From the NCBI GenBank assembly GCA_026225235.1, contig JAMFSK010000200.1, positions 62,001 through 126,000 of the forward strand: 64,000 nucleotides of DNA. The letters are read 5' to 3'. This DNA is from Burkholderiales bacterium (GTDB lineage Bacteria > Pseudomonadota > Gammaproteobacteria > Burkholderiales > Burkholderiaceae). Position numbers and translations under genes: made by a program. Within the stretch, counting starts at the first letter, position 1. Every line of letters starts with the position of its first letter. A model generated the notes under the pieces. That model was given only the letters and a program-made list of their open reading frames with translations, was not told where the DNA came from and searched no databases. Shown here one piece after another: positions 8,521 through 64,000 of the stretch.

Positions 8521-8536
8521 TGGCACACATGTTGCA
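8521..8536 (+). promoter_or_regulatory. sigma-54 (-24/-12) promoter candidate for the TonB-receptor/LLM operon
   Basis: TGGCACACATGTTGCA, near-consensus TGGCACG-N4-TTGCW with GG-N10-GC. Confidence 0.8.
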
Positions 8537-10962: not shown

Positions 10963-10992
10963 TCTTTGAGTGCTCACAAGGAGAGGCGTCCC

Positions 10993-18161: not shown

Positions 18162-19826
<1,665 letters not shown>

Positions 19827-38220: not shown

Positions 38221-38266
38221 GCGCTGCCGCCCCGCATCACAGCGCGCCGTGTCGGGGCGGCAGCGC
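38221..38266. terminator. strong bidirectional stem-loop between convergent metI-like and sfnB-like genes
   Basis: GCGCTGCCGCCCCG-N18-CGGGGCGGCAGCGC, perfect 14-bp arms; right arm lies inside the 3' coding end of the minus-strand gene. Confidence 0.6.
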
Positions 38267-40757: not shown

Positions 40758-40894
40758 GCGAGATTGCAGCACAAGCCTCGTGGAATCCCAAAGCACGATT
40801 AAGACGTTGCTTATCACGCTGGCTACTTAGGCCACCCGTGCCGGGTCAGCCCGTTATGCGATTCGACAGGCTGCTTGCGACGTTTGATGGCGAC

Positions 40895-42909: not shown

Positions 42910-43581
42910 TCATGCCACAGCGTATTGAGACGCCCGCTCCAGCAGCCCCGTTCTTTTCCATTGAAGTTCGATCGCACCCGGCGTATAGGTTTGCGCGCCC
43001 CCGATCTGTGCGGCGATGGCCTGGAACCGCGCGGCTTCCTCAATCAGGAGAATGAGCTCGGCGGTCTTGACGATACCGGTGCCCCAGAAGTTCGCTCCAC
43101 CGTTCGACTCAAGCAAGGCGGGCGGAGGAGCCAGGTCCGGCCGGGCATCGAGCCTTTCTCGCACGACTTCCAGCGGGCTGCGGGTGCGTTCGAGATGGTT
43201 CGGAATTTCGCGGGCGAGCAGATGACGCTGCGCGGCCACATACAGAATCGGAAACGGCTTGTGCGCCAGTGACCAGGCGGCAAGATACGGTGTGTGCGCG
43301 TGAATCAGGGTGTCGGCCTCGAGCCGCGACTCGTTGAGCAGCGATTCCTTCTGGTCCGAAAAGCGCGTGATCTTGACGCGCGGGGTTTTGTCGCGCTCCC
43401 AAGGCTGCGCAAAGCGCACGCTCAGCAGTTTGTCCTGCCCAGGGATCCGGTGCGAAATCTGGAAGATCAGGCTTGCCGACAAGGTGCTGGAGTCACGCAA
43501 AAATTCGAATGCGTGAATCGCATCGCTTTTGGCGGTGTCAACGTAGAGTGCCAGTTCTTCATCGATAGTCGATTGCGACAT
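42910..43581 (-). CDS. class II aldolase/adducin-like protein, divergent
   Basis: TLIHAHTPYLAAWSLAHKPFPILYVAAQRHLLAREIP...LLESNGGANFWGTGIVKTAELILLIEEAARFQAIA; paralog of 51032..51724. Confidence 0.7.
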   Translation of the reverse strand: MSQSTIDEELALYVDTAKSDAIHAFEFLRDSSTLSASLIFQISHRIPGQDKLLSVRFAQPWERDKTPRVKITRFSDQKESLLNESRLEADTLIHAHTPYLAAWSLAHKPFPILYVAAQRHLLAREIPNHLERTRSPLEVVRERLDARPDLAPPPALLESNGGANFWGTGIVKTAELILLIEEAARFQAIAAQIGGAQTYTPGAIELQWKRTGLLERASQYAVA

Positions 43582-44465
43582 TATTGCCAGGTTCCGTTTG
43601 TGAAAGAGGAAGTGCCACCCGGAAGCGGCGCCGTCGAGCCCTGATGTTCTTCGCCAGGACTCAGAAAATGCGCGAGCAACTCCGCTCGCAACGCGCCATA
43701 CCGCAGATCCTCGCGCCGACGCGGTCGGGAGAGGTCCACGCTGGCGATACGATTGATTCGCCCAGGCTGACTATCGAGTACGACGACACGGTCTGCGAGA
43801 TAAACTGCTTCGTCGATGTCATGCGTCACCATGACAATCGTGGTTCGATCCTGTTGCCACAGGCGCAGAAGCTCGCGCTGCATCTTGAGCCGCGTGAGGG
43901 CGTCGAGCGCACCGAAGGGTTCATCGAGCAGGAGCACGTCCGGGCGACCCACCAGCGCGCGCGCGATCGCCGCTCGTTGCGACATGCCACCCGAGACCTG
44001 CTGCGGATAGGCATTCTGGTACTCGCTCAGACCCACCCGCTCAAGCTGAGCGATCGCCCGCGCGCGCCGCTCATGCGGCGACGCTACGGAGCGCGTCAGG
44101 GCCAGCTCGACGTTTTCGCTCAGGGTGAGCCATGGATACAGCCTGTGATCCTGAAACACGAGGGAACAACTGCCGCGGGTACCGCGCACCGGAGCGTCGT
44201 CTTGCGACACGTCCCCTTCATAGTCGGTGTCGAGCCCCGCGAGCAGTCTCAGCAAAGTCGATTTGCCGCAGCCACTCGCCCCCACCACCGCGACGAACTC
44301 TCCTGGCGCAATGCTCAGGTCGATGCGTTCGAGCGCCGTAACGAGACGACCGTCCAGCGTGAAGCGCTTGCTTACGCCTCGCAAATCAAGTTGCCCCTTT
44401 TGAACAGGGGCCTGCGACTCCAGCGCTGGCGCAAACACGAGACCTCTCTCTACGATGCCGTTCAT
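43581..44465 (-). CDS. ABC transporter ATP-binding protein (SsuB/TauB-like)
   Basis: VVGASGCGKSTLLRLLAGLDTDYEGDV..., VSGGMSQRAAIARALVGRPDVLLLDEPFGALDALTRLKMQ; start MNGIVERG preferred. Confidence 0.9.
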   Translation of the reverse strand: MNGIVERGLVFAPALESQAPVQKGQLDLRGVSKRFTLDGRLVTALERIDLSIAPGEFVAVVGASGCGKSTLLRLLAGLDTDYEGDVSQDDAPVRGTRGSCSLVFQDHRLYPWLTLSENVELALTRSVASPHERRARAIAQLERVGLSEYQNAYPQQVSGGMSQRAAIARALVGRPDVLLLDEPFGALDALTRLKMQRELLRLWQQDRTTIVMVTHDIDEAVYLADRVVVLDSQPGRINRIASVDLSRPRRREDLRYGALRAELLAHFLSPGEEHQGSTAPLPGGTSSFTNGTWQ

Positions 44466-44466
44466 G

Positions 44467-44877
44467 TCAGCCGCCATTCGCGGTAAGCACCGAGAGCTTC
44501 GACACCCCCGCACGCTCGATTGCGGCCATCGCCTTAGCCACCGTCCCGTAGGGAACGCCCTCATCGGCCTGCAAGCTCAGCGGCAGGTCCTTGTTGGCGG
44601 CGACCCGCGCACGCAGCTCGGGCTCGAGCAAAGCAAGCGGCAGTTCACGCTTGTCGACGAAAATCCGGCCTTGCGCGTCGACACTGACCGTCACCGCCTT
44701 GACTTGCGGGGGTGGCGCCGTGGTCGCGGTTTTTGGCAGATTCACATGCACCGCATTGTTCAGCAGCGGCGCGGTGACGATAAAGGTAACCAGCAACACG
44801 AGCATCACATCGACCAGCGGCGTGATGTTGATTTCGCTGAGGACTTCGTCACCGTCAGAGGAGCTCGAGAAGGCCAT
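44467..44877 (-). CDS. exbD: biopolymer transport protein ExbD/TolR family
   Basis: EVLSEINITPLVDVMLVLLVTFIVTAPLLNNAVHVNLP. Confidence 0.95.
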   Translation of the reverse strand: MAFSSSSDGDEVLSEINITPLVDVMLVLLVTFIVTAPLLNNAVHVNLPKTATTAPPPQVKAVTVSVDAQGRIFVDKRELPLALLEPELRARVAANKDLPLSLQADEGVPYGTVAKAMAAIERAGVSKLSVLTANGG

Positions 44878-46587: not shown

Positions 46588-46843
46588 TTTGCGTCGCACT
46601 GCGGCATAAACGGTGCGGCACAGGCGAGCAGACAGGCCCGCGGGCACTCACCCTGCGGAAACGGCAACAGGCACCGGGCCGCCGGTTGTTGAGAGCACAG
46701 CATCATCTGCCTCGACACTGTTGCTGAATCATCAGACACCCGTGCGTTCCCCCTTCGCGTGACAGCATGCGCACGTCACGATGAAGCGTCCCGGCCCGTG
46801 CGGAAGGTTACGCAGCGCCTCGTCTACACAAGGACAAGCGCGC

Positions 46844-46859
46844 TGGCTTGAAGCTTGCT
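46844..46859 (+). promoter_or_regulatory. sigma-54 promoter candidate for DszB-like/SsuC-like operon
   Basis: TGGCTTGAAGCTTGCT; GG-N10-GC; 33 nt upstream of start 46892. Confidence 0.65.
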
Positions 46860-46891
46860 CTAACGTGCCACTCGAACTTCCGATTGCTTCC

Positions 46892-47920
46892 ATGACCGAC
46901 CTACGCGCCAACGACTCGCCCACACGACTCACCTACGCCCGCTCCCCTGTCCCGACACCGCTCGGTATTGCGATCCATCTCGGTTGGCTCAATGGCGAAT
47001 GGTCGGAAAGCGGCGTCACGATCAAGTCGGCGCAGCGAGACACCCCGCTCGCCGAAAGGGTGTCGCAAGACGAATATCGGCTTGGGCATTCGTTCTTCCA
47101 GGGCGGCAGCATTCCTGCGATGTGGGCGCGCTCACGCGGCGCCGACACGCGCGTGATCGGACTGTCCTGGATTGACGAAACCCAGCAGATCCTGGCCCTT
47201 TCATCGTCGGGCATTCGTAACGTCAAGGCGCTCCGCGGTCGCCGGCTCGGTCTGCCACGCCGGCGCAGCGATACCGTCGACGTCAATCGCGCCACGGCAC
47301 TGCGGGGCTTTCTCAGTGCACTGGGCACCGAGGGACTCACCGGGAACGATATCGAGTTCGTAGACGTTGACGCTCATGCTGTAGCCAACTCGACGCCTTA
47401 CCTGCGCGATATCGAAGCGTTGCGGGCCGGGACAGTCGATGCCATCTACGTCAAAGGCGCACACGGCGTGATCGCCGCACGCAGCACCGACTTCCGATGT
47501 GTGATCGATCTCGGCTTTCACCCCGATCCGATGGTACGAAACAACAATGGCACGCCCCGTCCGCTCACGGTCAACGGTGCGGTGCTCGATAACTTTCCCG
47601 ACATCGTCGACGGTTTTCTGCGACTGGTCTCCGATGCGGGCGAATGGGCACGTACGCATCGGCGCGAAGCGCTCGAGTTCGTCAGCCGGGAAGCCGGTGC
47701 CCCTGTGGATGCGGTGCAAGAGGCTTACGGCGACCAACTGCATCTGCGGCTTGGCATCGACCTCGCGCCCGAGTCGATCGGCGCGCTCGATGCGTTCAGG
47801 TTGTTTCTCCTCGACCATCGGTTTTTGCCAAACGCGTTCGGTATTCGCGACTGGATTCATCCGGATCCCCTCGCGCGACTGGACCTTCATCGCATTGCCG
47901 GCAATGTCCTTCGTGCCTGA
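46892..47920 (+). CDS. DszB-like (2'-hydroxybiphenyl-2-sulfinate desulfinase family) protein, paralog 1; could be auto-annotated as ABC substrate-binding protein
   Basis: RLTYARSPVPTPLGIAIHLGWL...QGGSIPAMWARSRGADTRVIGLSWIDE...LRGRRLGLPRR...; C-terminal YGDQLHLRLGIDLAPESIGALDAFRLFLLDHRFLPNAFGIRDWIHPDPL; no signal peptide. Confidence 0.72.
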   Translation: MTDLRANDSPTRLTYARSPVPTPLGIAIHLGWLNGEWSESGVTIKSAQRDTPLAERVSQDEYRLGHSFFQGGSIPAMWARSRGADTRVIGLSWIDETQQILALSSSGIRNVKALRGRRLGLPRRRSDTVDVNRATALRGFLSALGTEGLTGNDIEFVDVDAHAVANSTPYLRDIEALRAGTVDAIYVKGAHGVIAARSTDFRCVIDLGFHPDPMVRNNNGTPRPLTVNGAVLDNFPDIVDGFLRLVSDAGEWARTHRREALEFVSREAGAPVDAVQEAYGDQLHLRLGIDLAPESIGALDAFRLFLLDHRFLPNAFGIRDWIHPDPLARLDLHRIAGNVLRA

Positions 47921-47959: not shown

Positions 47960-48787
47960 ATGAGTTCCACTCACTCCATCAATCATGTATCGACCGGCAG
48001 TCTCCCTTCGGTACGAGTCACACGCACCGCGTCCCACCGGGTACTGAAGCGGTCGGCGTCGCTGATCTCGCCCCTACTTCTATTGGCGCTATGGGCATGC
48101 GTCGCCCATGCGGGCTGGTTTCCGCCGCAAATCCTGGTGTCGCCGCTCAAAGTCTGGCGAGCATTCGAGAGCACGCTCGCCTCGGGCGAATTGCAGAGCA
48201 ATCTCTCGATCAGCTTGCTTCGCCTGCTTGAAGGTTTCGCCGCAGGTGCGGCGGCCGGCATCCCGTTCGGCATTGCGCTAGCACGCTCGCCCCGCGTCGA
48301 GGCTTATTGCGGATGGACCTTCGCCGCCTTACGTCAGATGCCGACGCTCGTGATGATTCCGATGCTCGTGCTGATCCTCGGGGTCGACGAATCGCTGAAG
48401 ATCGTGATTGTCGCCAAGGCGACCTTCTTCCCCGTCGCACTCGCCGCTTGCCAGGCGGTCCGCGCGCTGCCGGCTTCTCAACTTGAAGTCGCCCGGCTGC
48501 TTCAGTTGCGTGGGTGGGTACTCTACCGCCGCGTCCTGCTGCCCGCTGTCGCGCCCGACATCGTCACAGGAACGCGGATCGCGCTCAGCCGCTCCTGGAT
48601 GGTGCTCGTATCGGCCGAACTGCTCGCCGCCGATAGCGGCATCGGTGAAATGATGGAACTCGCGCGCCAGTCGCTGCAGATCGATACGGTGATGGTCTGC
48701 GTCTTTGCCACGGGTCTGGTCGGTTTCGCCCTCGATCAGGGCCTGCGTGCCATTGAACGCGGCTCGCGTCGCTGGCAACGAACATGA
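47960..48787 (+). CDS. ABC transporter permease (SsuC-like)
   Basis: LRQMPTLVMIPMLVLILGVDESLKIVIVAKATFFPVALAACQAVRALP. Confidence 0.92.
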   Translation: MSSTHSINHVSTGSLPSVRVTRTASHRVLKRSASLISPLLLLALWACVAHAGWFPPQILVSPLKVWRAFESTLASGELQSNLSISLLRLLEGFAAGAAAGIPFGIALARSPRVEAYCGWTFAALRQMPTLVMIPMLVLILGVDESLKIVIVAKATFFPVALAACQAVRALPASQLEVARLLQLRGWVLYRRVLLPAVAPDIVTGTRIALSRSWMVLVSAELLAADSGIGEMMELARQSLQIDTVMVCVFATGLVGFALDQGLRAIERGSRRWQRT

Positions 48788-48797
48788 AGGAGCAAGC

Positions 48798-49592
48798 ATG
48801 ACCCATCCACTGACCGCCCGACCCGAGCGTCTGGCGCCCTCGGGCCTACGCCATTGGCAAGGGCTTCTGCTACCCGCATGCCTGCTGCTTCTCTGGGAGT
48901 GGGCTTCGCATCGCGACGCGGCACATGCCTACGCGTTCACCCCGCTTGAAACAGTCGGCGTGACATTGTGGGAGCAGTTGCGCGGAGCGGATTTATGGGT
49001 GAACCTCGAAGCGAGCCTTGCACGTACGCTCGCAGGCTTCGCCGCCGGCGTGGCGACCGGCGTCGCCTGCGGCGGAATAATGGCGATGTCGCGGCCAGCA
49101 AAAACTGCGATCGCGCCCCTCTATCATCTGTTGCGTCAAGTCCCGCTACTCGGTCTGATCCCGCTGATCAGCCTCTGGTTCGGCAACGGACAACTCGCAA
49201 AGATCGTGGTGGTGGCGCTCGCCAGCTTTTATCCGGTCGTCTTGAATACGTTCGAAGGATTGAGCGGAATCGACCGGCGTCATCTGGAAGTCGCAGACCT
49301 GTTGCAGCTCAGTCGCTGGCGACGCTTCACTCGCGTGCTCCTGCCGATTGCGCTACCGTCGGTCATGACCGGCATACTGCAGGCTCTCCCGTTCGCGTGG
49401 ATCACGGCAGTCGCCAGCGAGCTGTTGTTCACCGCGGGATCGGGTCTGGGCGGAATGATGCTCAATGCACAGGCCGGCGCACGCATGGATGTGATCCTGA
49501 TCGCGATTCTGGCCGTGACGCTGTTGGGTTCGCTGATGAATGCCGCCTGCGTCCGCCTCGGTCGCTACTTCACGCGATGGCAACTGAGCTAG
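48798..49592 (+). CDS. ABC transporter permease (SsuC-like), second subunit
   Basis: LRQVPLLGLIPLISLWFGNGQLAKIVVVALASFYPVVLNTFEGLSGIDRRHLEVADLL; start MTHPLTARPERL after AAGGAG. Confidence 0.92.
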   Translation: MTHPLTARPERLAPSGLRHWQGLLLPACLLLLWEWASHRDAAHAYAFTPLETVGVTLWEQLRGADLWVNLEASLARTLAGFAAGVATGVACGGIMAMSRPAKTAIAPLYHLLRQVPLLGLIPLISLWFGNGQLAKIVVVALASFYPVVLNTFEGLSGIDRRHLEVADLLQLSRWRRFTRVLLPIALPSVMTGILQALPFAWITAVASELLFTAGSGLGGMMLNAQAGARMDVILIAILAVTLLGSLMNAACVRLGRYFTRWQLS

Positions 49593-50955: not shown

Positions 50956-51031
50956 CTTGATGGCCCGGCCTTCGACATGCGTCAGTGTCCGGATGCCGCA
51001 GCCCCACCCTCACTCGAAAAAAAGGAATCCC

Positions 51032-51724
51032 ATGTCGACCGATACGACCCATAGCCCACAACTCGCTGCGCATATCACCTCCTTCGTCCAGCAAGCGCGG
51101 CGCGATTTCGACAAGGCTGCCCGGATTCTGAAGGAGACCGGCACGCTATCCGCGACCAACACATTCCAGGCCTATGCACGCGTGCCGGGCGAGGCGCTGG
51201 TCGTCTCGCTCCACGCAGCAAGCCCGTGGGCCGACGATCAACAGGTCAAGCCGGTCGTGGCCGGTTTCGATGGGAAGGTATTGTTCGGCGACGCGAAGGG
51301 AGGGGGTCACGGTCAGCGCTACGCTGATGTGTTTCGCGAGCAACCCGAGGTCAGCGTGGTGATCCACGTTCACGGCCCCTACCTGGGCGCATGGGCCAGC
51401 TCGCACCGTACGCTGCCGATCCAGTATGCGCCGGCACAGCGCTTCACCCTCGCACGCGAGATCCCGATCTATATCGACCGCCGAGCGGGAGAGCCTGCGT
51501 TCATTAACGAGCAGATTCGCCGCGACCCGAACATTCCGGCGATCCTCGAGGCCAACGGGGGTTCGACGTTCTGGGGCAAGGACATCATCGAGGTGTCGAA
51601 GTACATTCTGATCCTTGAGGAAGGCGCCCGCTTCCAGGCACTGGCGGAACCCCTCGGCGGATCGAAAGCGTTCGGACCGGGGGTGATCGAACAACAATGG
51701 CGCATGACCGGTCTCGCCGCCTAG
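51032..51724 (+). CDS. class II aldolase/adducin-like protein, divergent
   Basis: VVIHVHGPYLGAWASSHRTLPIQYAPAQRFTLAREIPIYIDRRAG...ILEANGGSTFWGKDIIEVSKYILILEEGARFQALA; start MSTDTTHS after AAAGGAAT. Confidence 0.75.
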   Translation: MSTDTTHSPQLAAHITSFVQQARRDFDKAARILKETGTLSATNTFQAYARVPGEALVVSLHAASPWADDQQVKPVVAGFDGKVLFGDAKGGGHGQRYADVFREQPEVSVVIHVHGPYLGAWASSHRTLPIQYAPAQRFTLAREIPIYIDRRAGEPAFINEQIRRDPNIPAILEANGGSTFWGKDIIEVSKYILILEEGARFQALAEPLGGSKAFGPGVIEQQWRMTGLAA

Positions 51725-51774: not shown

Positions 51775-52893
51775 ATGCTCCTTATCCGCTCCTTGCTTTC
51801 TCATGTTTTCCGCGCGAGCCGCCCAGCGCTGATCACCTCTCTTGCTCTGGGCTCGCTGTACACCCATGCGGCGAACGCATCGACTGACGATGCGAAAACC
51901 GTCCGTATCGCCGTCATCGCGAGTTTTGAGGCTGGAAAACCGACCTTCAACGGCGCTTCAGAGATCGTGCGGCGCGACGGCTGGCTTGAAAGCGAATTGA
52001 AGAAGCGCGGCGTCGCGCTCGACTATGTGACGGTGTCGACCTCCGCCGTGGCCACGCAGGTCAACGAAGCGCTCGCCAACCGAGGGGTCGACTTCGCGGC
52101 GTATGGTGACCTTCCCTCGATCGTCGTCAACGCGGAAGGCATCAAGACGCGGATCATCGTTCCAGGGGGTGCAGGGATGAACACCTACCTGATTGTGCCG
52201 GCCGACTCGCAGGCCAAATCACTGCGTGACCTGATCGGCAAGCGCGTCGCCATCAATCGCGGACGCCCGTGGGAATATCAGTTTCGCAAGCTGGTCGACC
52301 AGAATGGGTTGAAGTTCTCCGACTTCCACATCATCAATCTGAATCCGCAAGCCGGGGCCGCCGCGATTGCCGCAGGACAGGTCGATGCTGAATTTACGCT
52401 GAGCGAGTCGTTCACGCTCGAAGACAAAAAACTCGCGAAGATTGTCTGGTCGAGCCGTGATGAGCCGGCAGACTGGCGCATGCGAGCGGAGTTATGGGGC
52501 ACGGACGATTTCGTCTCGCACAACCCCGAGCTGACCCAACTTGTCGCCACCGCCTTCGTCAAGGCGCAGTACTGGATCTCGCAGACGGCGAACCAGAACG
52601 ACTTCTACAAGGTTGCGGCGCGTGCTGGGGTCCCGGAAAGCTCAGTGCGCCGCCAGTACGCCGATGACAGCGTCGCGTGGAAAGATCAGTGGTCACCCCT
52701 CTTCTCGGCCGGATTGGAACAACACTACGTCGCCGAAGCGCAATACGCGAAACAAACCGAGATCATTTCAACGCCCGTCAACGTGTCGACGTTCTTCGAC
52801 ACCCGGTTTGTCGATGCCGCACTGAAACAATTAAACCTGACCACATACTGGACGGCACCGGCGGCGTCTGTGGCGGCAGCCGCGGCGCGATGA
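51775..52893 (+). CDS. ABC transporter substrate-binding protein (SsuA-like)
   Basis: 372 aa; leader LITSLALGSLYTHAANAS; GVDFAAYGDLPSIVVNAEGIKTRIIVPGGAGMNTYLIVPADSQAKSLRDLIGKRVAINRGRPWEYQF. Confidence 0.9.
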   Translation: MLLIRSLLSHVFRASRPALITSLALGSLYTHAANASTDDAKTVRIAVIASFEAGKPTFNGASEIVRRDGWLESELKKRGVALDYVTVSTSAVATQVNEALANRGVDFAAYGDLPSIVVNAEGIKTRIIVPGGAGMNTYLIVPADSQAKSLRDLIGKRVAINRGRPWEYQFRKLVDQNGLKFSDFHIINLNPQAGAAAIAAGQVDAEFTLSESFTLEDKKLAKIVWSSRDEPADWRMRAELWGTDDFVSHNPELTQLVATAFVKAQYWISQTANQNDFYKVAARAGVPESSVRRQYADDSVAWKDQWSPLFSAGLEQHYVAEAQYAKQTEIISTPVNVSTFFDTRFVDAALKQLNLTTYWTAPAASVAAAAAR

Positions 52894-54692
52894 ATCGGTA
52901 CCCGAAGCAGAATGCAGCGTGGCTCGTCAAGGCTCCCCTGCTGCGCTGTCTGGCGATCTACGCGCAGATGCCCTGGCGTTTCACGCTGACCGCCGTGTTG
53001 TTCGCGTTCGCCAATATTGGTGTGGCCTGGCAGCAATGGCTGATCGGGCGAGCACTCAATGACGTGAATCGCGGGCACGTCGTGGTTCGGTTGCCCGACG
53101 GTTCGCTCGACTACCATCGCGCCATGTTCTGGCTGACGCTGCTGGTGGGCATCGCATCGCTGCGCGCACTCATTCAGTATCTTGCAGGCGTGATGTCGAT
53201 GATCGTCGGGCAGGAACTGCTGTTCAAGATCCGCGAACGAATCCTGGTCCAGATACAGCGGCTGGATCTCGGCTACCACCGACGCCACGGCATGGGTGAA
53301 CTCGTCACCCGTACCACCCGCGATGCGGACAAGGTTCGCGATGCGTTGATCAACTTCTGGCGGCAGATATTCGAAACGACGCTGCTGGTTCTGGCATCGA
53401 TCGGCATGTTGTATTGGTATTCGCCCTGGCTCGGCATCGTGCCCCTGGTGCTGACGCTGACGGGGCTTGCGATCCTGATGACGCATATGGAACATCTGGT
53501 CGAACTCGACCGGGCGGTCGGCTCCGCGTATGACAAGGTCAATCAGAACCTGACCGAAGGCGTTAACGGAGTGCGCGTGATCAAGGCGTTCAGCCTGGAG
53601 TCAGCTCGTATTGCCAGTTTCGAAACCCAGATCGCCGGCTTTAGCGGCGCGTCGCGGGACGCGATTGCGTATGCGGCACGCCGCATTCCGCTACCCCAGT
53701 GCATCGTTGCGTTGAGCCACGTCTGGGTGCTCGCCTACGGCGCCACGCTGATCGGACAAGGACAGCTCACCATCGGCGGACTGGTCGCCTCCTTGCTGCT
53801 CGCCAACACCCTCGTCCTCCGCGTTGAAGGCATCGGACGCGTCATGCAGATTTTTGCCGATGCCCGCGCATCGGCACAGCGGATCTGGAACTTGCTCGAC
53901 GCAGAGCCGCAATTTGAATCCGGGACTGTGGCACTCCCCCAGGGACCTTTGGGCGTGCGCCTGCAGAACGTGAATGTCACCACGCCCGAAGGAGGCAATG
54001 ACATTCTTGGCGACATCAGTTTCGCCATCGAACCGGGGGAAATCGTCGCCCTGGTCGGCACGACAGGCTCGGGGAAAAGCACGCTGCTGGGGCTGCTGCC
54101 TCGCCTTGCCCACGCGCACGCCGGTTCGGTATCGGTCGGCTCAGCCGAGCAGGGATGGTTCAGTGTCGACTCGCTCGATACGAGCGCGTTGCGCGAACGC
54201 GTGCACGTCGTGCCTCAGGAGAGCTTCCTGTTCTCCGACACACTCGCCGCGAACCTGCGCCTCGGAGCGCCTGATGCAAGCGACACCACCTTGCGCGCAG
54301 CCTTGAAGATGGCTTGCGCGGAAGACATCCTCGACGGCCTGCGCGAGGGTTTTGCCACGCGCCTGGGCGATCGGGGCATGACGCTGTCCGGCGGCCAGCG
54401 ACAGCGGCTGTGCCTCGCGCGCGCGTTGCTCGCAAGGCCTGCGGTGCTCGGCCTCGATGACGCCACCAGCGCACTCGATGCCACCACGGAACGCACGGTG
54501 CTGCAGAACATCCGACAGTTACGCGCGAGCGCCGGCGAGGCCATTACCGTGCTGATTGTCTCGAGCAAGCTCTCTACCATTCTGTTGGCCGACCGCGTGC
54601 TGTTGCTCGCCGCCGGCCGTATTGCCGCACAAGGCACTCACGCGGAACTCGCCTCGCGCGAGCCCGCCTATCGCGATCTGATGGGAATCTGA
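52890..54692 (+). CDS. heterodimeric-type ABC exporter, subunit A (degenerate ATPase motifs)
   Basis: TMD + NBD; Walker [42 protein letters not shown], switch region VSSKLSTI; ATG overlaps upstream stop. Confidence 0.9.
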   Translation: MNRYPKQNAAWLVKAPLLRCLAIYAQMPWRFTLTAVLFAFANIGVAWQQWLIGRALNDVNRGHVVVRLPDGSLDYHRAMFWLTLLVGIASLRALIQYLAGVMSMIVGQELLFKIRERILVQIQRLDLGYHRRHGMGELVTRTTRDADKVRDALINFWRQIFETTLLVLASIGMLYWYSPWLGIVPLVLTLTGLAILMTHMEHLVELDRAVGSAYDKVNQNLTEGVNGVRVIKAFSLESARIASFETQIAGFSGASRDAIAYAARRIPLPQCIVALSHVWVLAYGATLIGQGQLTIGGLVASLLLANTLVLRVEGIGRVMQIFADARASAQRIWNLLDAEPQFESGTVALPQGPLGVRLQNVNVTTPEGGNDILGDISFAIEPGEIVALVGTTGSGKSTLLGLLPRLAHAHAGSVSVGSAEQGWFSVDSLDTSALRERVHVVPQESFLFSDTLAANLRLGAPDASDTTLRAALKMACAEDILDGLREGFATRLGDRGMTLSGGQRQRLCLARALLARPAVLGLDDATSALDATTERTVLQNIRQLRASAGEAITVLIVSSKLSTILLADRVLLLAAGRIAAQGTHAELASREPAYRDLMGI

Positions 54693-56561
54693 ATGACCAG
54701 CATGCGTGGCAAGACGGCACTGTCCGACATTGAACTCGAAGAGCATCTGGCGCAACAGGCACTAAACCGGAGCATGCTGGTGCGCATGATGCCGCTGCTC
54801 GGACCCGCGTGGCGGCTGATCGCCGCCGTATCGGGAATCGAACTCCTCCTCGTGGCGACTGTGTTCCTGCGGCCGATACTCATTGGCATTGTGATCGATC
54901 GTGGCTTCATTCACGATGCCCCTCACTGGACCATGCTGCCATCGGTGATCACCGGTTGTTGCGCGGCGCTTGCGGCAAGCTGGGCCGCGCGCTTCGCCCT
55001 GGGAGGCCTGTCGCAGTATCTGGCAGGGAAGGCTGCGATTCGTGTTCTCAATGGGCTGCGCGTGCGCGTCTTTGCCCATGTGCAGAGTCTGAGCATTGCC
55101 TACTTTGACCGTACCAAGGCCGGCCGCATCATTTCACGCGCCGATCGCGACGTCGACACGCTCGAACCCCTGCTGATCCAGGGGCCCCCGGAACTGCTAT
55201 CTGCTTTGTTGCGATGTGTGGTGGCCGGCGTGCTGCTGTGGCGGATCGCCCCTAGCCTGCTGGCGAGTCTGATTGCGACCGTGCCGATCCTGTTCGCTGC
55301 AACGGCGATCTTCAAGCGGATTTCGCACCGCAACTGGACACGGGTAGCCGAATGCCGAAGCCGCTTCACCGCCCATCTCGTCGAAACGGTAGCGGGCGTG
55401 CGAATGCTGCAACAGACCGTGCGCGAATCGGACAACCTGACGCTCTACCGGGGCTTGCTGCGCGAGTTCAATCAGGCGCTGATCGGAGGCAGTATCCGCT
55501 CCAACTGGTTCGCGCCCTTCACCTCTGTGTTGACGACCACGGGCATGGCACTCTTGCTGGTGATCGGCGCCCGCGGTCTCACGCTGCACGAAATCACCAT
55601 CGGTCAACTTGCACAGAGTCTGTTCTACGTATTTCTGTTTCTCGGGCCCTTGCAGGAATTGACGGACCTTTTCGAGCGATATGCGAACGGAAGTGCCTGT
55701 GCGCAGCGCATTTTTCTGATGCTCGATACGCCTGCGCAAATCGTCGACGCCGACGATGCCTTCGACCTTCCCGCTTTACGCGGAGAAGTGAGATTTCGAG
55801 ACGTACATTTTAGCTATGACGATCGCAATCGGCGCCCCGTGATCAATGGACTCGATCTGCACATCGCCGCGGGCGAAGTGCTCGCCATCGTGGGACCGAC
55901 CGGCCACGGCAAGAGCACACTCGTCCAGCTGCTCACGCGCTTCTACGATGTGGCGAATGGCGCCGTCGAGATCGATGGCGTGGACATCCGCTCGGTGACC
56001 CAGCGCAGCCTGCGACAACACGTCGGCGTGGTGCTGCAGGACAATGTGCTATTCGGCGGCACGATTCTCGACAACCTGAGACTCGCCCAGCCCGAGGCCT
56101 CCGACGCAGAGCTCATCGGCGCCGCCCGGGCATTGGGGGCCGACGAAATCCTCGAAAGCCTTCCGCATGGCTATGACACAGAAGTCGGGCCGCTGGGTGC
56201 GGACCTGAGCCACGGGCAACGGCAACTGGTCTGTCTGGTACGGGCCTATCTGGCCAATCCTCGGGTACTGGTGCTGGACGAGGCCACCTCAGCTGTCGAC
56301 GTCCATACCGAACGACGTATCCAGCGCGCGTTACGGACGCTTTGCAGAGGTCGCACGGCCATCATCATCGCTCACCGGCTTGCGACCATCCGGGACGCGA
56401 GCCGCATCGCGGTCATCCGGCAAGGACAGGTCGCGGAGATCGGTTCACATCATGAATTGTTGTTGCGACCCGGCGGCCTCTATGCGGCCCTCTATCAGGC
56501 GTATGAAGAAAGTGCCTTGGCCGACGAGAACTTCAGCGTGGTCGCCGAAGCGTGGTCCTGA
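54693..56561 (+). CDS. heterodimeric-type ABC exporter, subunit B
   Basis: TMD + NBD; Walker A GPTGHGKST, signature LSHGQ, VLVLDEATSAVD, IIAHRLATI. Confidence 0.92.
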   Translation: MTSMRGKTALSDIELEEHLAQQALNRSMLVRMMPLLGPAWRLIAAVSGIELLLVATVFLRPILIGIVIDRGFIHDAPHWTMLPSVITGCCAALAASWAARFALGGLSQYLAGKAAIRVLNGLRVRVFAHVQSLSIAYFDRTKAGRIISRADRDVDTLEPLLIQGPPELLSALLRCVVAGVLLWRIAPSLLASLIATVPILFAATAIFKRISHRNWTRVAECRSRFTAHLVETVAGVRMLQQTVRESDNLTLYRGLLREFNQALIGGSIRSNWFAPFTSVLTTTGMALLLVIGARGLTLHEITIGQLAQSLFYVFLFLGPLQELTDLFERYANGSACAQRIFLMLDTPAQIVDADDAFDLPALRGEVRFRDVHFSYDDRNRRPVINGLDLHIAAGEVLAIVGPTGHGKSTLVQLLTRFYDVANGAVEIDGVDIRSVTQRSLRQHVGVVLQDNVLFGGTILDNLRLAQPEASDAELIGAARALGADEILESLPHGYDTEVGPLGADLSHGQRQLVCLVRAYLANPRVLVLDEATSAVDVHTERRIQRALRTLCRGRTAIIIAHRLATIRDASRIAVIRQGQVAEIGSHHELLLRPGGLYAALYQAYEESALADENFSVVAEAWS

Positions 56562-56618: not shown

Positions 56619-57710
56619 CTAGTGAAAGAGCGTTCGCGCGGGCGCCGCAATGCGTTGCCCGCCAATCATTGTCGGCCGCTGACGCATGACATCCGACAGC
56701 GGTCCCGGTTCTACCCATCGCTCCAACTCGAAATCGTTGGCCAGGAAACCTTCCCTGAGCAGAAAGCCCTTAAAAGCGCCCAGGCCTTCAATCGATCTCG
56801 GCTCCAGCGCCAGCCGCAGATTCTGATGCACATTGTGGCCATAGGCGTAGCGAATCCAGTGCCGCGTCCACCCCGTCTCGCGACCGATCATCTCGACGGC
56901 CCGGGCGGGATTATCCGCTGCCCATTCTCCCGCCGCCACGACGCGTTCGAGCAATAGCCGCACGAGGTCCGGGCGGTTGTCGAGCAAGCGCTGGTTCACG
57001 GTCAGAGGACGTGGCGTGCCATTGCCGATCCGCATCATGGGGTCCGCATGAAATCCGATATTGGCAATCATCTTCGCGCCGATCAGATGGGCGGTCTCCG
57101 CGCCGCGCACATCTTTCAAGTACACGACGTCGACCAGGCCCGTGCTCAGCGCGCTGGCTTCGCTCGCATACGTGTGCCGGCCGCGCCGCGCGATATCGAC
57201 CGAACGGACCACGTCGTCGCGAATCGTCGTCGGCATCGCGTGGTCAGGGATATCGACCCACTCGACTTCGTGACGGCCAATCCCCTCGGCATCCAACATC
57301 GCAGTGATAGCGCGCAGTGCGGCGGCACGGTTGTGATCGATGGTCGTCGTGTGTCGGGGCAGACCGATACGCCGTCCGCGCAAGTCGCGCGGCGTCTCGA
57401 TGCGAGCTGTCGGTAGCGCGGCAAGGGCCTGAAATTCATCGGTCCATGTGAGACCAAGCACGCGAGTCGGCTGACCGATTGCGCGCCCGAACAGCGCGGG
57501 CACGCTGCCGCCCTGGCGCAACGAATCAGGGAGGTCCATCTGCCCGTGCAGCGAAGGCTGTCGCGGATCGCGACCGTCTTCGAGCAAGGAATGCAATTCA
57601 ATGTCAGCCGCGCGAGCCACATCTCGCAGCCAGCCGAGATGCCAGGCAATAGACAGGGGGGTGGGAACAGGAGGTCTGACGCACCAGACGATTTCAGGAT
57701 CAGCGGCCAT
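56619..57710 (-). CDS. DszB-like (desulfinase family) protein, paralog 2
   Basis: EIVWCVRPPVPTPLSIAWHLGWL...SLHGQMDLPDSLRQGGSVPALFGRAIGQPTRVLGLTW...; C-terminal YGHNVHQNLRLALEPRSIEGLGAFKGFLLREGFLANDFELERWVEPGPL; start MAADPEIVW preferred. Confidence 0.72.
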   Translation of the reverse strand: MAADPEIVWCVRPPVPTPLSIAWHLGWLRDVARAADIELHSLLEDGRDPRQPSLHGQMDLPDSLRQGGSVPALFGRAIGQPTRVLGLTWTDEFQALAALPTARIETPRDLRGRRIGLPRHTTTIDHNRAAALRAITAMLDAEGIGRHEVEWVDIPDHAMPTTIRDDVVRSVDIARRGRHTYASEASALSTGLVDVVYLKDVRGAETAHLIGAKMIANIGFHADPMMRIGNGTPRPLTVNQRLLDNRPDLVRLLLERVVAAGEWAADNPARAVEMIGRETGWTRHWIRYAYGHNVHQNLRLALEPRSIEGLGAFKGFLLREGFLANDFELERWVEPGPLSDVMRQRPTMIGGQRIAAPARTLFH

Positions 57711-57759
57711 CGGGCGCCTCACGTAACGGGAATGCGCAAGATCAATACGGAAACAAGAA

Positions 57760-57789
57760 GAGAGTTTCGCCGTAACCGGCAAAACTCTC
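57760..57789 (-). terminator. intercistronic stem-loop between TonB receptor and DszB-like gene
   Basis: Plus strand GAGAGTTT-C-GCCG-TAAC-CGGC-A-AAACTCTC; on minus strand followed by TTCTTGTTTCC. Confidence 0.5.
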
Positions 57790-57814
57790 CCGAGCAAAAA
57801 CGACCTCGCCAACC

Positions 57815-60325
57815 CTACCAGCGGAACGTCCCGCTCACGCCGACATAGCGTGGCTCGCCAAGTGCGGTCGGATCGGAACCGTTGGCCGCAACCTGACTCA
57901 GGATGACATACGACTTGTTCAGGACATTGTTGGCATAGACCGAAATGTCATACTTCTTGTTCGGCGACGTGTAGGTCGCACTCACGTTGCCAAGTGTATA
58001 GCCACCCTCGCGCTGAAGCGGATCATTCTGCACGACAGCGTTATAGAAGATCGAGCTGCGATAGCTCCAGTCGGTGCTGAACAGCACGCTTCCACCGACG
58101 GCTTCCGGCAAGGGCACCCGATAGTCGACCCCCACGGTGATCGATGTATGCGGCGTCCGATAGAACGAGTTGCCGCTTGCGTTCACGACCTTCGTACCCT
58201 GATAGGTCACGAAGTTCGTATAGTGCGCGTTAAGAAAGCCCAGGCCCGTCCACAAGCGAAGGTTCTCTGTGGGCAGCGCCTGCAGTTCAAATTCGATGCC
58301 CTGGACCCTGCCGTTCGCCGCATTCTGCGTGGTGCTGGTGGTCTGGTTCGGCAATCCCGCCGGGTTCGGGGTCTGCACGTTCAATTGCAGGTTCTTCATT
58401 TGATAGTCGAAGACTGCGGTATTGAAAATGAGCCGTCTGTCCAGCCATGCCGTTTTAAGCCCGAGCTCGTAGTCCGTCAGCGTTTCCGGCTGCACTTCGG
58501 GAATGACAGGCTTTCCTCCGGGCACGGCAATGCTCGGGTTGAAGCCGCCCGATCGAAAGCCGGTCGCAAAACGTGCATAGACAAGCGCGTCCTTGCTTAG
58601 CTTGAACTGCGGCGTCAAATCGAAAGTGGTCTGGCTCCAGGAGTCATTCGCCGACAACGACGTGCTGCTGATTGCGGGAGATCCCGGAGCCGGCGATACG
58701 GCCGACAACGGCCACCATGTACCCGGGTTGTTGAATACCACCGAACCGGCGGCCCCGCTGGCGATCCGGGATTCCTCCACCGACTTCGTCTCGCGGGTGT
58801 AACGAACCCCGCCGGTCAATGAAGCGCGGTCCGTGATGTTAAACGTCGCGCTGCCAAACAACGCATTGCTCTGGTCGGCCTGATGGAGCGGCTGGCTCAG
58901 ATAGGCGGTACTTTTCGTCGGTGCGATCGTTGCCGACACAGCCTGATAGTCCAGGCTCGAGTCGAAGAACATATAGCCGACGAGCCAGTTGAACCGGTCC
59001 GTCTGCGGAGATGCGAGACGCAATTCCTGCGAGATTTGCCGGAAGTCCGACTGCGAATACGTCCCGCTCTGGTTCGGTACGCGCGGAGAAGGCGCCGTGC
59101 CAGGTTGCTGCACTATGTCGTCGTGCGCCGTCTCGATCGCCGAGATCGACGTGAGCTTCAAGCGGTCGAACTGGTAGTTCAACGTCACGCTTGCACCCGC
59201 GGTGTCGTTCGTCACCTGGCTATAGCCGGAATAGAACGAATCACCGATCTGCGGGCTTATCCCGTAGGAAGGCACGAAGCCATAGTTGTCCGCGCCACCC
59301 GGATTGATACCGATCGGATAGCTCGGTGAGGCAGTGCCGCTGTAGCGCGCAAAGTGCGCGTTGACCAGGGCCGTGAAATTGTCCGACAGCACCGCCAGCA
59401 GCTGAATACGGCCGCCGCAATCGGAGTAGTCCGGCTGGCTGCCTCCCGTAAAGTTATTGTGCGCGTACCCACTTGTCTCGTCGCAACGAAACGAGACACG
59501 CCCGGCCAGCGCGTCGTCCTTGATGGGACCCCCGACCGCCGCTTCGACCGTTCGCGTGCCGTAGTTGCCGATGCCAAGTTTGGCGTAGCCGTCGTAGTCG
59601 AACGTCGGCTTTTGCGAGATGAAGTTGATAGCCCCGCCGGTCGTGTTTTTGCCCCAGAGGGTTCCCTGCGGTCCCCGCAGCACTTCGACGCGCTGCTGGT
59701 CATAGATCGGGAATACCTGGCTTGAGGCAAGCGCGATAAACACATCGTCCTGGTAGATACCAATCGGCCCTTCAAGGTTCACTGAGGGGTCGTTCGAGCC
59801 GATACCCCGCAGGAACCAACGCGGCTTCGAGGTCAACCCACCACTGGACTGTGCCGAGAAGTTCGGCACCAGCCGTGCGATGTCGTTCGAATTGTGGATG
59901 TTGGCGTTTTGAAGGTAGTCGCCACTGATGGCCGTGATCGCTACTGGGACGTCCTGAATCTTCTGCTCGCGTCGCTGTGCCGTGACGGTCACTGCGCCCA
60001 ACTGTTTAGGCGCAGCATCGGCCTTTTTCGACGCGACGGTCGATTTGCCCGTTGTCTTCGGCGTCGTTGACGAACTGGTCGCACCAGTACCCGGTTGAAG
60101 CGCATCACCCGATGTCACCGCGACCTCGGGAGCCGCGTTGCCCGTGACTGTCGCCGAAGATTGCGCCTGGCTCAGCATCGGAAACGCGAGCATCGCCGCA
60201 AACCATGCACTGCGCGTGAGACGTAAGCCGTGCACGTGGCCTTGACGCGATCGGGTTGTTTTCTTTGCTTTACGAGGGGGGACTGACGGTTGATGAAGAT
60301 GATCGACTTGCACTGGCTTCCCCAT
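57815..60325 (-). CDS. TonB-dependent receptor
   Basis: AVTVTAQRREQKIQDVPVAITAISGDYLQN..., RVEVLRGPQGTLWGKNTTGGAINFIS; C-terminal VGVSGTFRW; start MGKPVQVDHL preferred over 60586. Confidence 0.95.
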   Translation of the reverse strand: MGKPVQVDHLHQPSVPPRKAKKTTRSRQGHVHGLRLTRSAWFAAMLAFPMLSQAQSSATVTGNAAPEVAVTSGDALQPGTGATSSSTTPKTTGKSTVASKKADAAPKQLGAVTVTAQRREQKIQDVPVAITAISGDYLQNANIHNSNDIARLVPNFSAQSSGGLTSKPRWFLRGIGSNDPSVNLEGPIGIYQDDVFIALASSQVFPIYDQQRVEVLRGPQGTLWGKNTTGGAINFISQKPTFDYDGYAKLGIGNYGTRTVEAAVGGPIKDDALAGRVSFRCDETSGYAHNNFTGGSQPDYSDCGGRIQLLAVLSDNFTALVNAHFARYSGTASPSYPIGINPGGADNYGFVPSYGISPQIGDSFYSGYSQVTNDTAGASVTLNYQFDRLKLTSISAIETAHDDIVQQPGTAPSPRVPNQSGTYSQSDFRQISQELRLASPQTDRFNWLVGYMFFDSSLDYQAVSATIAPTKSTAYLSQPLHQADQSNALFGSATFNITDRASLTGGVRYTRETKSVEESRIASGAAGSVVFNNPGTWWPLSAVSPAPGSPAISSTSLSANDSWSQTTFDLTPQFKLSKDALVYARFATGFRSGGFNPSIAVPGGKPVIPEVQPETLTDYELGLKTAWLDRRLIFNTAVFDYQMKNLQLNVQTPNPAGLPNQTTSTTQNAANGRVQGIEFELQALPTENLRLWTGLGFLNAHYTNFVTYQGTKVVNASGNSFYRTPHTSITVGVDYRVPLPEAVGGSVLFSTDWSYRSSIFYNAVVQNDPLQREGGYTLGNVSATYTSPNKKYDISVYANNVLNKSYVILSQVAANGSDPTALGEPRYVGVSGTFRW

Positions 60326-60372
60326 GGATTTTTCGTTGCCGAAGCTGTTATGTACTGAGCGGGGTGCTAGAT

Positions 60373-60388
60373 AGCAGCAACTATGCCA
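60373..60388 (-). promoter_or_regulatory. sigma-54 promoter candidate for third TonB receptor/DszB-like unit
   Basis: Minus strand TGGCATAGTTGCTGCT; GG-N10-GC; 48 nt upstream of start 60325. Confidence 0.55.
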
Positions 60389-60695
60389 ATTGCCGTTCAA
60401 TCGGGGAGTCAGCCAATGGGGCCAAGGATTCCAGCACACGTAGCAGTCGTGTCGCTTGGGATTCGCTTCGGATACGCAGGCGGCCTTCTGCTCCGAACCC
60501 AACAGTCCAGTGCGGGAATCGGCGCAGACGCGGATACACAGTCGCCTTCCACACCGAGGTTTGCTGCGTATTGCACACACACACATATCGAACGCACATC
60601 AACTTGGTTGTCCTGCGGGAGCGCAGCCCCTAGATTCGGGTGTTCATGCATTTCATTCGCCCGCCCCGTGCGGTCGGCTGCCAAGGAAACAACAC

Positions 60696-61874
60696 GTGAC
60701 ACTCGACTCCCAGCCTCCCACCACCCTGCTTGCGCTTGACGACGCTCAGCCGCTGTCAATCCGGGCCAAGGCGATGGTCTTCGCCGATCCCGCCTCTCGC
60801 GCGCTGCTTGACTATCTCGAACGGATGGCGCCCAGCGATGTGCCGGTTTTGGTCAATGGCGAAACGGGCACCGGGAAGGAACTCGTCGCGCGCCATGTGC
60901 ATCGTTTAAGCAAGCGAGCCGGCCCTTTCCTCGCTGTGAATTGCGGCGCGATCACTGAGCAGCTTGCAGAGAGCGAATTGTTCGGTCACGAAGCAGGTGC
61001 GTTCACGGGCGCGGTCGGACGCCGTCAGGGATGGTTCGAGGCGGCGGATGGCGGCACTCTCTTTCTGGACGAAATTGGTGATCTGCCGCTTCCCTTGCAA
61101 GTCAAGTTGCTGCGTGTACTGCAGGAACGTGAAGTCGTGCGGCTCGGCTCGCGCAAGCCGATCCCGATCGATGTCCGACTGGTCGCGGCGACCAATGTCG
61201 ACTTGAATCATGCGGTGCATGCGGGTCGCTTCCGGCTCGATCTGCTTTACCGATTGAACATTGCTCAGGTCCGGTTGCCGCCGCTGCGCGAGCGACCCGG
61301 CGATATCGAACCGCTCGCGGAGCATTTTCTCAAGCAGTACACGCAGCGACTGGGCCGCGCGCCTGTCCGCCTATCCGCGGGTGCGCGTGCGACGCTGAAG
61401 CGCTATCCATGGCCGGGGAACATCCGCGAGCTAGAAAACGCGATTCATTTTGCGCTGCTCGTTGCCGATGGGTCCGATCTCGAGCCCGAACATTTGAGTA
61501 TGGCGGGCAGCTGGAATGAGCATGCGTGGGACAGTACCTGGAGCGATGATGCTGCGGCGCCCGGGGCACACGCGCAGATGAACGGAACCCCGCTCGCCAT
61601 CATTGGCAAGCAACTCGAGCGCTTGCTCGATGCACCGCCTTCCGACCTGTTCAACGAACTGGATTCGCTCATTGTCCGGACGGCGTTCCGCGCGAGTGGC
61701 GAAAATCAGGTACGCGCGGCAGCGCTGCTTGGCGTCACGCGCAATGTCATCAGAACGATGCTGCGCCGCCATGGCTTGCTGGGTGCTGCCGATGGCGAAT
61801 CGACACCTCGCGATAACCCGGCGCAAGTCCCCGATGCAAGCGACGATCATCGGCCAGCATCACCGAACGACTGA
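60696..61874 (+). CDS. sigma-54-dependent Fis-family transcriptional activator (SfnR-like)
   Basis: [56 protein letters not shown] start with AAGGAAAC upstream; Fis [24 protein letters not shown]. Confidence 0.92.
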
Positions 61875-62096: not shown

Positions 62097-62112
62097 TGGC
62101 ATGGACGTTGCA
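62097..62112 (+). promoter_or_regulatory. sigma-54 promoter candidate for SsuD-like/DszB-like unit
   Basis: TGGCATGGACGTTGCA; GG-N10-GC; 55 nt upstream of start 62167. Confidence 0.75.
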
Positions 62113-62166: not shown

Positions 62167-63345
62167 ATGAGTACGGAATTTTTCTGGCGGCTACCGCTGG
62201 GTAGCGACGGGCCCTATCTGGCTTCCGATAAAAACACGCGCGGTCCGCAGCCCTGGAAGCCAGGCAATATCGCGCCGGGCCGGCTACCCGACGGCACAGC
62301 CGATGGCTTTACCTATATCGACTACATCGCGCAGGTCGCGAAGGCTGCCGAGATTGCCGGATTCGAAGGCGCGTTGCTGCCGACGGGTCCTGAACCCTGG
62401 ATCGCCGCAGCAGCCCTTGCACGCGAGACACGGCGGATCAAGTTCCTGATTGCGTTTCAAGCGACCTGGACTTTGCCCGCCTACGCTGCGCAACAGGCGG
62501 CCATCCTTCAGAGCCTCTCGCACGATCGTCTCGAGTGGAACATCATCACGGGCGGCGTACCCGCACAGCAACGTGCGAACGGCGACTTCCTCGAGCATGA
62601 CCTCCGCTACAAACGCACTGGTGAATTTCTCGACATCGTGCAAGGACTCTGGGAGAACGAGCGGTTCTCCTACGAGGGTGACGTCTACAAAATCGAGAAT
62701 GGCGCGCTGCATCCGGCGTTGCGCCGGGAACGTCGTCCGGGCGTGTATTTCTCAGGCTTCTCGGAGCCCGCGCTCGAGGTAGCCGCCCGCCACGCGGATG
62801 TCTATCTGAATTGGGCGGAACCGGTCGAGAAACTGAAGCCGCATATTGAACGCGTGCGCGAGTTGGCCGCGAAACAGGGCCGCACGATCCGTTTCGGCAT
62901 TCGTATCGACCTCATCGCGCGCGAAACCGAAGAGACCGCATGGGCCGAGGCGCGACGTCAGTACACGTTCATCGACGAGAAGACCGCCGCGTTCCTCAAA
63001 CGAATCAACGGCGGCTCCGATTCCGTCGGAGCCGCACGCCAGACGGCGTACCACGCACAGGCCCAGCGCTTCGAAGACCTTATTCTCGGCCCCAACCTGT
63101 GGGCCGGCTTCGGCCTCGCCAAACCGGGACCCGCCGTCGGTCTGGTCGGCAACTATCAGAACGTCGCTGAGCGACTGGCCGAGTTTCGCGACTCGGGTAT
63201 CTCGACGTTCATCCTCGCAGGCAGTCCTCACCTCGAAGAAGCGCTACGGATCGGCCAGGAAGTCCTGCCGCTCGTGCGCCTTCAGCCCGCGCATACGACA
63301 GCGCCGCAGGTCGCCCCCCAGGCGGCGGCGGTGCCCCTGTCCTGA
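62167..63345 (+). CDS. LLM-class flavin monooxygenase, alkanesulfonate monooxygenase (SsuD)-like
   Basis: MSTEFFWRLPLGSDGPYLASDKNTRGPQPWKPGN...IKFLIAFQATWTLPAYAAQQAAILQSLSHDRLEWNIITGGVPAQQRANGDFLEHDLRYKRTGEFL. Confidence 0.92.
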   Translation: MSTEFFWRLPLGSDGPYLASDKNTRGPQPWKPGNIAPGRLPDGTADGFTYIDYIAQVAKAAEIAGFEGALLPTGPEPWIAAAALARETRRIKFLIAFQATWTLPAYAAQQAAILQSLSHDRLEWNIITGGVPAQQRANGDFLEHDLRYKRTGEFLDIVQGLWENERFSYEGDVYKIENGALHPALRRERRPGVYFSGFSEPALEVAARHADVYLNWAEPVEKLKPHIERVRELAAKQGRTIRFGIRIDLIARETEETAWAEARRQYTFIDEKTAAFLKRINGGSDSVGAARQTAYHAQAQRFEDLILGPNLWAGFGLAKPGPAVGLVGNYQNVAERLAEFRDSGISTFILAGSPHLEEALRIGQEVLPLVRLQPAHTTAPQVAPQAAAVPLS

Positions 63346-63396: not shown

Positions 63397-64000
63397 ATGA
63401 GCGAACCGCTCGACACCCTGTGGTACACCCGCTGCCCCGTTCCGACGGGTCTTGGCATCGCCTTCCAGCGCGGCTGGCTCGAGGCGGGTTTTGCTGAACA
63501 GAACACCCAGCTCAAGTCGCTGCGCGAATCGGACGACCGGTCCGTACGGGAATCGCATTTCGATCACACCTTGCAGAACTCCGTCCGCCACGGCGGCAAC
63601 ATCCCTGCCATCTGGGCGCGTTCGGTCGGCCGCGAGACACGCGTAATCGGTCTGTCGTGGGCCGACGAGATTCAGTTGATCCTGACGCTCCCCGAATCCG
63701 GGATCAAGACCGTGCGCGATCTCAAGGGCCGCAAGTTCGGCTTGCCGAAACGCGAGAACGTACAGATCGATTTCACCCGCGCTCAAGCCTTGCGCGGACT
63801 CGAGAACGCACTGAAGCTCGAGGGCCTGGAAGTGAGCGACGTTGAACTCGTCGACTTCACGATCGATGCCACCTTCAGCGACGAACCGGCGAAACGCGTA
63901 GCGGGTACGCAATTGTTTGCGGGCCGCAACAGCGGCAATCGCAACACCGAGCTCGTGGCGCTGTTGCGTGGCGAAGCGGATGCGATCTTCCTCAAAGGCG
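63397..64000 (+). CDS. DszB-like (desulfinase family) protein, paralog 3, truncated by window edge
   Basis: MSEPLDTLWYTRCPVPTGLGIAFQRGWLEAG...ESHFDHTLQNSVRHGGNIPAIWARSVGRETRVIGLSWADE...; no stop before window end. Confidence 0.75.
   Translation, partial: MSEPLDTLWYTRCPVPTGLGIAFQRGWLEAGFAEQNTQLKSLRESDDRSVRESHFDHTLQNSVRHGGNIPAIWARSVGRETRVIGLSWADEIQLILTLPESGIKTVRDLKGRKFGLPKRENVQIDFTRAQALRGLENALKLEGLEVSDVELVDFTIDATFSDEPAKRVAGTQLFAGRNSGNRNTELVALLRGEADAIFLKG

Follow-up and report, generated by a model that had tools for sequence, protein, structure and literature searches.

The question raised by this locus is whether a gene of a kind normally annotated in databases as an ABC substrate-binding protein, a naming practice that the preliminary description of this DNA had noted and that was borne out, encodes a sulfinate desulfinase related to DszB of Rhodococcus. 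The window, meaning the whole stretch of 64,000 nucleotides that was analysed (G000:C71:62001-126000), ends within the gene, so that the reading frame at 63397-64000 of the forward strand, which is real, is open at the window end and truncated. The full gene, which the preliminary description had proposed to obtain from flanking sequence, was recovered from the contig beyond this point and encodes 355 amino acids (L012:5397-6464). In window coordinates, the features on which the argument first depends are these:

62170-63345, forward strand: SsuD-like FMNH2-dependent monooxygenase, of a non-canonical subgroup (without the Cys54 loop, and with D for H228 and K for R297)
63397-64000, forward strand: DszB-like gene of the Cys type, of which the window contains the first 201 of 355 codons; its end is at contig position 126464 (G000:C71:126464)
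63433-63435, forward strand: codon (TGC) of Cys13, equivalent to DszB C27 and the only Cys of the protein
63556-63558, forward strand: codon of His54, equivalent to DszB H60
63586-63588, forward strand: codon of Arg64, equivalent to DszB R70 in the RXGG motif

The alignment to DszB had originally been made by eye. A phmmer search of the truncated frame against all PDB sequences bears it out, with DszB (2de2) as the top match (E=2.8e-5), LWYTRCPVPT of the frame being set against LTYSNCPVPN of DszB and SHFDHTLQNSVRHGG against VHFTYDQPAYTRFGG. C13, H54 and R64 are paired with C27, H60 and R70, and G67 is the equivalent of G73; together with G66, these are the Cys, His, Arg and Gly-Gly that had been proposed to occupy the DszB positions. 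In the same PDB alignment, the deposited C27S mutant (2de3) has Ser at the place of C27. Identity to DszB is only about 27%. The profile alignment that had been called for, made with 16 members of the family, matches DszB at E=7.7e-37, with profile positions 10-351 corresponding to DszB residues 19-362, and an alignment of 67 sequences (A2) matches it by hhalign at E=5.7e-28, the DszB query sequence being copied from the HMMER output of the profile search. The similarity is thus well beyond chance. SsuA comes next in the same profile search at E=3.5e-4, DszB scoring more than 30 orders better. A structural comparison gave the same answer: an AlphaFold model (pLDDT 94) of the Paraburkholderia lycopersici ortholog, which is 83% identical, has DszB entries as its top PDB matches in Foldseek (E=2.5e-20, TM 0.75), with SsuA structures second (E=1.2e-15). 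By fold and descent the protein belongs to the DszB family and is closer to it than to SsuA-type proteins, and the aligned catalytic residues place it there as well. The position of DszB itself in the tree is unsure because its branch is very long.

The case for catalysis begins with conservation. Cys, His and Arg are kept in all 80 aligned orthologs (at least 64% identical; the best-scoring loci, Pseudomonas-rich and not independent of one another), and these three residues lay outside the ortholog search pattern, which included GG and so biases the count for the latter. Across the 80, 114 positions are invariant, of which 46 are identical in DszB too, C13, H54, F55, R64, G66 and G67 among them. 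DszB draws its proton from C27 and relies on the H60-S25 dyad to stabilise the transition state, and its R70 is located in an RXGG motif; the C27S mutant is inactive, and H60Q is down about 17-fold (PMC6100217). The residues of the published cluster model (PMC6100217) are covered here by C13, H54, R64 and G67, with T11 in place of S25, a conservative change, and the dyad accordingly has its counterparts in H54, present in 80/80 orthologs, and T11. The biphenyl pocket of DszB (Y63, Q65 and the W155 segment) is not conserved: H57 and L59 stand where DszB has Y63 and Q65, and the W155 segment lies in an insertion that the present family does not have. Because this segment differs, the substrate is probably something other than HBPS, and the residues give no support to classing the protein as an HBPS desulfinase, that is, as DszB proper.

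The gene that precedes it had been described as coding for an SsuD-like monooxygenase, and its match to E. coli SsuD (1m41, E=5e-73) confirms this; its end is separated from the DszB-like gene by 51 bp. Canonical SsuD releases sulfite straight from sulfonates, and SsuD homologs normally need no desulfinase. The pairing with an FMNH2 monooxygenase, which the preliminary description had picked out at this one locus, proves to be conserved, 53/78 loci having a luciferase-like monooxygenase gene immediately upstream and in the same orientation (44 SsuD-like and 9 DszA/NtaA-like; 2 of the 80 loci had too little upstream sequence and were left out of the count). A dsz operon on a mycobacterial plasmid has the same monooxygenase-desulfinase order. 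The SsuD-like partners are a distinct subgroup with altered SsuD active-site positions: 45/45 lack the Cys54 loop and have Asp for H228, R297 is Lys in 43/45 and Y331 has become Asn or Ser, while W196 and R226 are retained. SsuD with Lys at this Arg loses catalytic efficiency about 30-fold (PMC8234197). The partner in the window scores below the SsuD cut-off TIGR03565 (307.5 vs 518.2 bits) and has changed canonical residues, and is not an SsuD equivalog; it also falls below the NCBIfam SfnG cut-off. Because it lies below these cut-offs and its active-site residues are changed, it is unlikely to be an alkanesulfonate monooxygenase of the ordinary kind.

The explanation that we favour, and consider fairly probable, is that the gene product is a DszB-family desulfinase that is cytosolic, needs no cofactor and depends on a cysteine, and that acts in sulfur scavenging on a sulfinate other than HBPS that is supplied by its monooxygenase partner. 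The sulfinate would be formed when the SsuD-like FMNH2 monooxygenase breaks a C-S bond in a sulfone or a related compound. It would be held by Arg64 and the Gly-Gly backbone, and Cys13, tuned by His54 and Thr11 as the equivalents of the H60-S25 dyad, would give a proton to the carbon that bears the SO2 group; the SO2 or sulfite so released would then be assimilated. Against this reading stand the low identity to DszB, the altered pocket, the sulfite release typical of SsuD and the existence of Cys-less members that are under selection. The same protein might instead be an enzyme that shares the DszB fold, the cytosolic location and the need for Cys but has a different C-S chemistry or substrate, for example a sulfonate, a sulfone or a monooxygenase intermediate, and not a free sulfinate. 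The unfamiliar pocket segment and a partner nearer to SsuD than to DszA would be in keeping with such an enzyme, as would Thi5, which is among the fold matches and is a case of the same fold with other chemistry. It is nevertheless unlikely, given that R70, G73, H60 and C27, the residues with which DszB handles its sulfinate, are all retained.

Whether the protein could serve in uptake depends on where it resides and on what the rest of the island encodes, of which the relevant features are listed here:

38237-39493, reverse strand: SfnB family sulfur acquisition oxidoreductase, above the NCBIfam cut-off
39495-40817, reverse strand: second SfnB family oxidoreductase, above the NCBIfam cut-off
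41494-42828, reverse strand: NtaA/DmoA family FMN-dependent monooxygenase (DszA superfamily)
43581-44564, reverse strand: ABC importer ATPase
46781-47920, forward strand: Ser-type DszB-like paralog (S/Q/F), in which not only the Cys but also the His and Arg have been lost
47960-49592, forward strand: two ABC permease genes (47960-48787 and 48705-49592), sulfonate-type importer, assigned by eye and from relatives beside annotated ssu genes elsewhere
51775-52893, forward strand: SsuA-family binding protein; its sequence, read by eye, begins with a leader
52890-56561, forward strand: two ABC half-transporters (ABC_membrane and ABC_tran)
56619-57812, reverse strand: Pro-type DszB-like paralog (Pro for the Cys), Arg of RXGG retained
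57815-60586, reverse strand: TonB-dependent receptor, divergent from the activator gene

In 57/69 orthologs the LWYTRC motif begins 7 residues after the nearest Met on its upstream side, and because this conserved start leaves no space before the motif there is no signal peptide, as had been claimed; the protein is predicted to be cytosolic. This bears directly on the proposal that it is an SsuA-type sulfonate- or sulfinate-binding protein feeding an ABC importer, with a likeness to DszB that reflects the shared fold only. The proposal draws on a Pfam NMT1 match and a sub-threshold NCBIfam SsuA_fam match, on the ABC permease and ATPase genes that are common nearby and on SsuA structures being the next best folds. 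An exported binding protein, however, is at odds with a start that has no room for a signal peptide, and DszB is far ahead of SsuA in the profile search. Moreover, alongside its DszB-like proteins the island encodes a separate, secreted-type protein of the SsuA family, which the 67-sequence alignment matches by hhalign at E=1e-8, against 5.7e-28 for DszB, and in which the Cys and RXGG have no counterpart. On a Sphingobium plasmid, where the ortholog is annotated as 'soxB monooxygenase', an annotated ssuA likewise sits with permease and ATPase genes. We regard an SsuA-type role as quite unlikely.

On the desulfinase reading, a sulfone-type compound would be imported through the island's TonB receptor and ABC transporters. 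SfnB-family proteins above the NCBIfam cut-off are found in the genome as well as in the island. The half-transporter pair at 52890-56561 lies beside the TonB receptor gene, an arrangement that recurs near orthologs; pairs of ABC half-transporters laid out with a TonB receptor are known in siderophore uptake. Class II aldolase/adducin-like genes are present at 42910-43581 and 51023-51724, with relatives in 54/67 DszB-like loci, and a chaperonin-like gene at 18183-19826, of GroEL type judging from the N-terminal sequence only, lies inside the sulfur island.

DszB-like genes are present in multiple copies. The contig carries six, which read C/H/R in three cases and then S/Y/R, S/Q/F and P/H/R. 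One of the Cys paralogs (C71:36917-38008) is preceded by an SfnB/DszC-like gene and an SfnG-like monooxygenase gene, the three running in one direction at G000:C71:33199-38008 (L009:13199-18008) as a DszC-DszA-DszB-like set. A different arrangement is seen in Pseudomonas, where a tandem DszB-like paralog lies directly downstream of the Cys copy (45/80 loci, L049-L128; for example L056:11141-12193) and reads Ser-His-Arg in 45/45. With Ser at the Cys position this twin resembles the inactive C27S mutant of DszB, and its codon, AGC or AGT, is a single base change from the Cys codons TGC and TGT. Median dN/dS is about 0.21 for the Ser copies, which are thus maintained genes under purifying selection, and 0.29 for the neighbouring Cys copies. 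The Ser clade has changes at five positions that are near-fixed in the Cys orthologs (R12H, C13S, W27R, S53A and E193D). Mapping Ser or Cys onto the tree requires at least four changes, so the cysteine has probably been lost repeatedly in the family, and the persistence of several Cys-less members under selection argues that the fold has some Cys-independent role. Tandem Cys/Ser pairs amount to a natural experiment on the need for the catalytic cysteine. It is very improbable that the protein is itself a non-catalytic chaperone or carrier for a labile monooxygenase product, in which case the Cys and Ser versions would be two binding partners, since the Cys clade keeps its Cys (the only one in the query) in 80/80 where Ser would suffice for binding, even though Ser paralogs are stably retained beside the Cys copies and C27S DszB binds HBPS without turnover (PMC6100217).

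Two further features concern the control of the pair:

60456-61874, forward strand: sigma-54-dependent activator with an AAA+ domain and little N-terminal sequence (SfnR-like layout); the true start is probably downstream of 60456
62097-62112, forward strand: sigma-54 (-24/-12) promoter, TGGCATGGACGTTGCA, a motif match

The promoter sequence is an exact instance of TGGCAYRN4TTGCW, of which the window contains 2 against 0.03 expected. The other, at 8521-8536, is ahead of TonB receptor and NtaA/DmoA monooxygenase genes (8653-12408). Among 39 orthologous SsuD-DszB operons, an exact match occurs within 400 bp upstream in 22 and in 0 of the shuffles, and in 16 of the 17 other operons the motif is nearly matched, at about -63 to -87. 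A known precedent is SfnR, a CysB-regulated sigma-54 activator for dimethylsulfone use according to titles cited in PMC13352529. By analogy, the pair may be under sulfur control, and would be turned on in sulfur starvation by the SfnR-like activator acting at the sigma-54 promoter.

The points of the preliminary description that stood, on profile, fold, conservation and synteny, are kinship to DszB, the residues, the leaderless start and the monooxygenase pairing. The gene is no lone oddity, an idea ruled out by the 80 close orthologs. Matches at E<=1e-15 were found in 48/399 sampled genomes of the taxonomic family, and two other species of the genus both lack a member at that threshold. In 369 genomes sampled evenly across the class, E<=1e-60 was reached in the present genome only, which points to a patchy rather than a universal family. 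Close orthologs are found mainly in Pseudomonas, Oxalobacteraceae, sphingomonads, Zoogloeaceae and Methylococcaceae; the family is widespread but patchy, and mainly proteobacterial. A search of the openly licensed literature turned up neither a characterised member of this subfamily among proteobacterial DszB homologs nor activity, expression or structure data on the subfamily, which is weak evidence of absence, and the 'cysteine sulfinate desulfinase' of Burkholderia papers is unrelated.

The main known sources of DszB are a few fuel-desulfurising strains, and desulfination by DszB is the rate-limiting step of biodesulfurisation (PMC6100217). A bolder proposal, which we put forward tentatively and hold to be unlikely, is that a large overlooked proteobacterial branch of DszB serves sulfur scavenging under sigma-54 control, passing from an SsuD-like monooxygenase through a sulfinate to a Cys desulfinase, with the Pseudomonas C27S twin as a sulfinate-holding, sensing or partner subunit. 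A branch of DszB whose catalytic site is conserved would in itself offer many new enzymes to test from common soil and plant-associated proteobacteria, would indicate natural sulfinates as a soil sulfur source and would put right many genes now annotated as 'ABC substrate-binding protein', a large set. The retained catalytic residues and the conserved unit behind a monooxygenase suggest a C-S cleavage route for sulfur scavenging well outside the known fuel-desulfurising bacteria.

Set beside known systems, the protein most resembles Rhodococcus DszB (PDB 2de2, 2de3 and 2de4), with which it shares the fold, the equivalents of C27, H60, R70 and G73, a hydroxyl residue at S25, the absence of a signal peptide and a gene directly behind that of a luciferase-like FMNH2 monooxygenase. 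It differs in its low identity, in the lack of conservation of Y63, Q65 and the W155 segment, in a partner that is mostly SsuD-like rather than DszA, in the sigma-54 promoter and in the frequent tandem Ser paralog. In bdsABC of Gordonia terrae C-6, which acts in benzothiophene desulfurisation and has low similarity to dsz (PMC3868597), the desulfinase gene is likewise in an operon with monooxygenase genes, although that system is actinobacterial and is likened here by description, not sequence. SsuA, the aliphatic sulfonate binding protein, has the same periplasmic binding-protein fold; unlike the present family, it is secreted and is a much weaker sequence match, and the island's own member of its family lacks the Cys and RXGG. 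The partner is like SsuD/MsuD and SfnG in retaining W196 and R226 of the SsuD sulfonate site, and unlike them in its deleted Cys54 loop, in its changes at H228 (to D), R297 (to K) and Y331 (to N/S) and in scoring below the SsuD and SfnG cut-offs. The sfn/msu dimethylsulfone system of Pseudomonas, with SfnR (PMC8234197), offers a parallel in its SfnB-family proteins, its sigma-54 activator and its sulfone-to-sulfinate logic. There, however, MsuC oxidises the sulfinate to a sulfonate that MsuD cleaves, and no desulfinase is described (PMC8234197).
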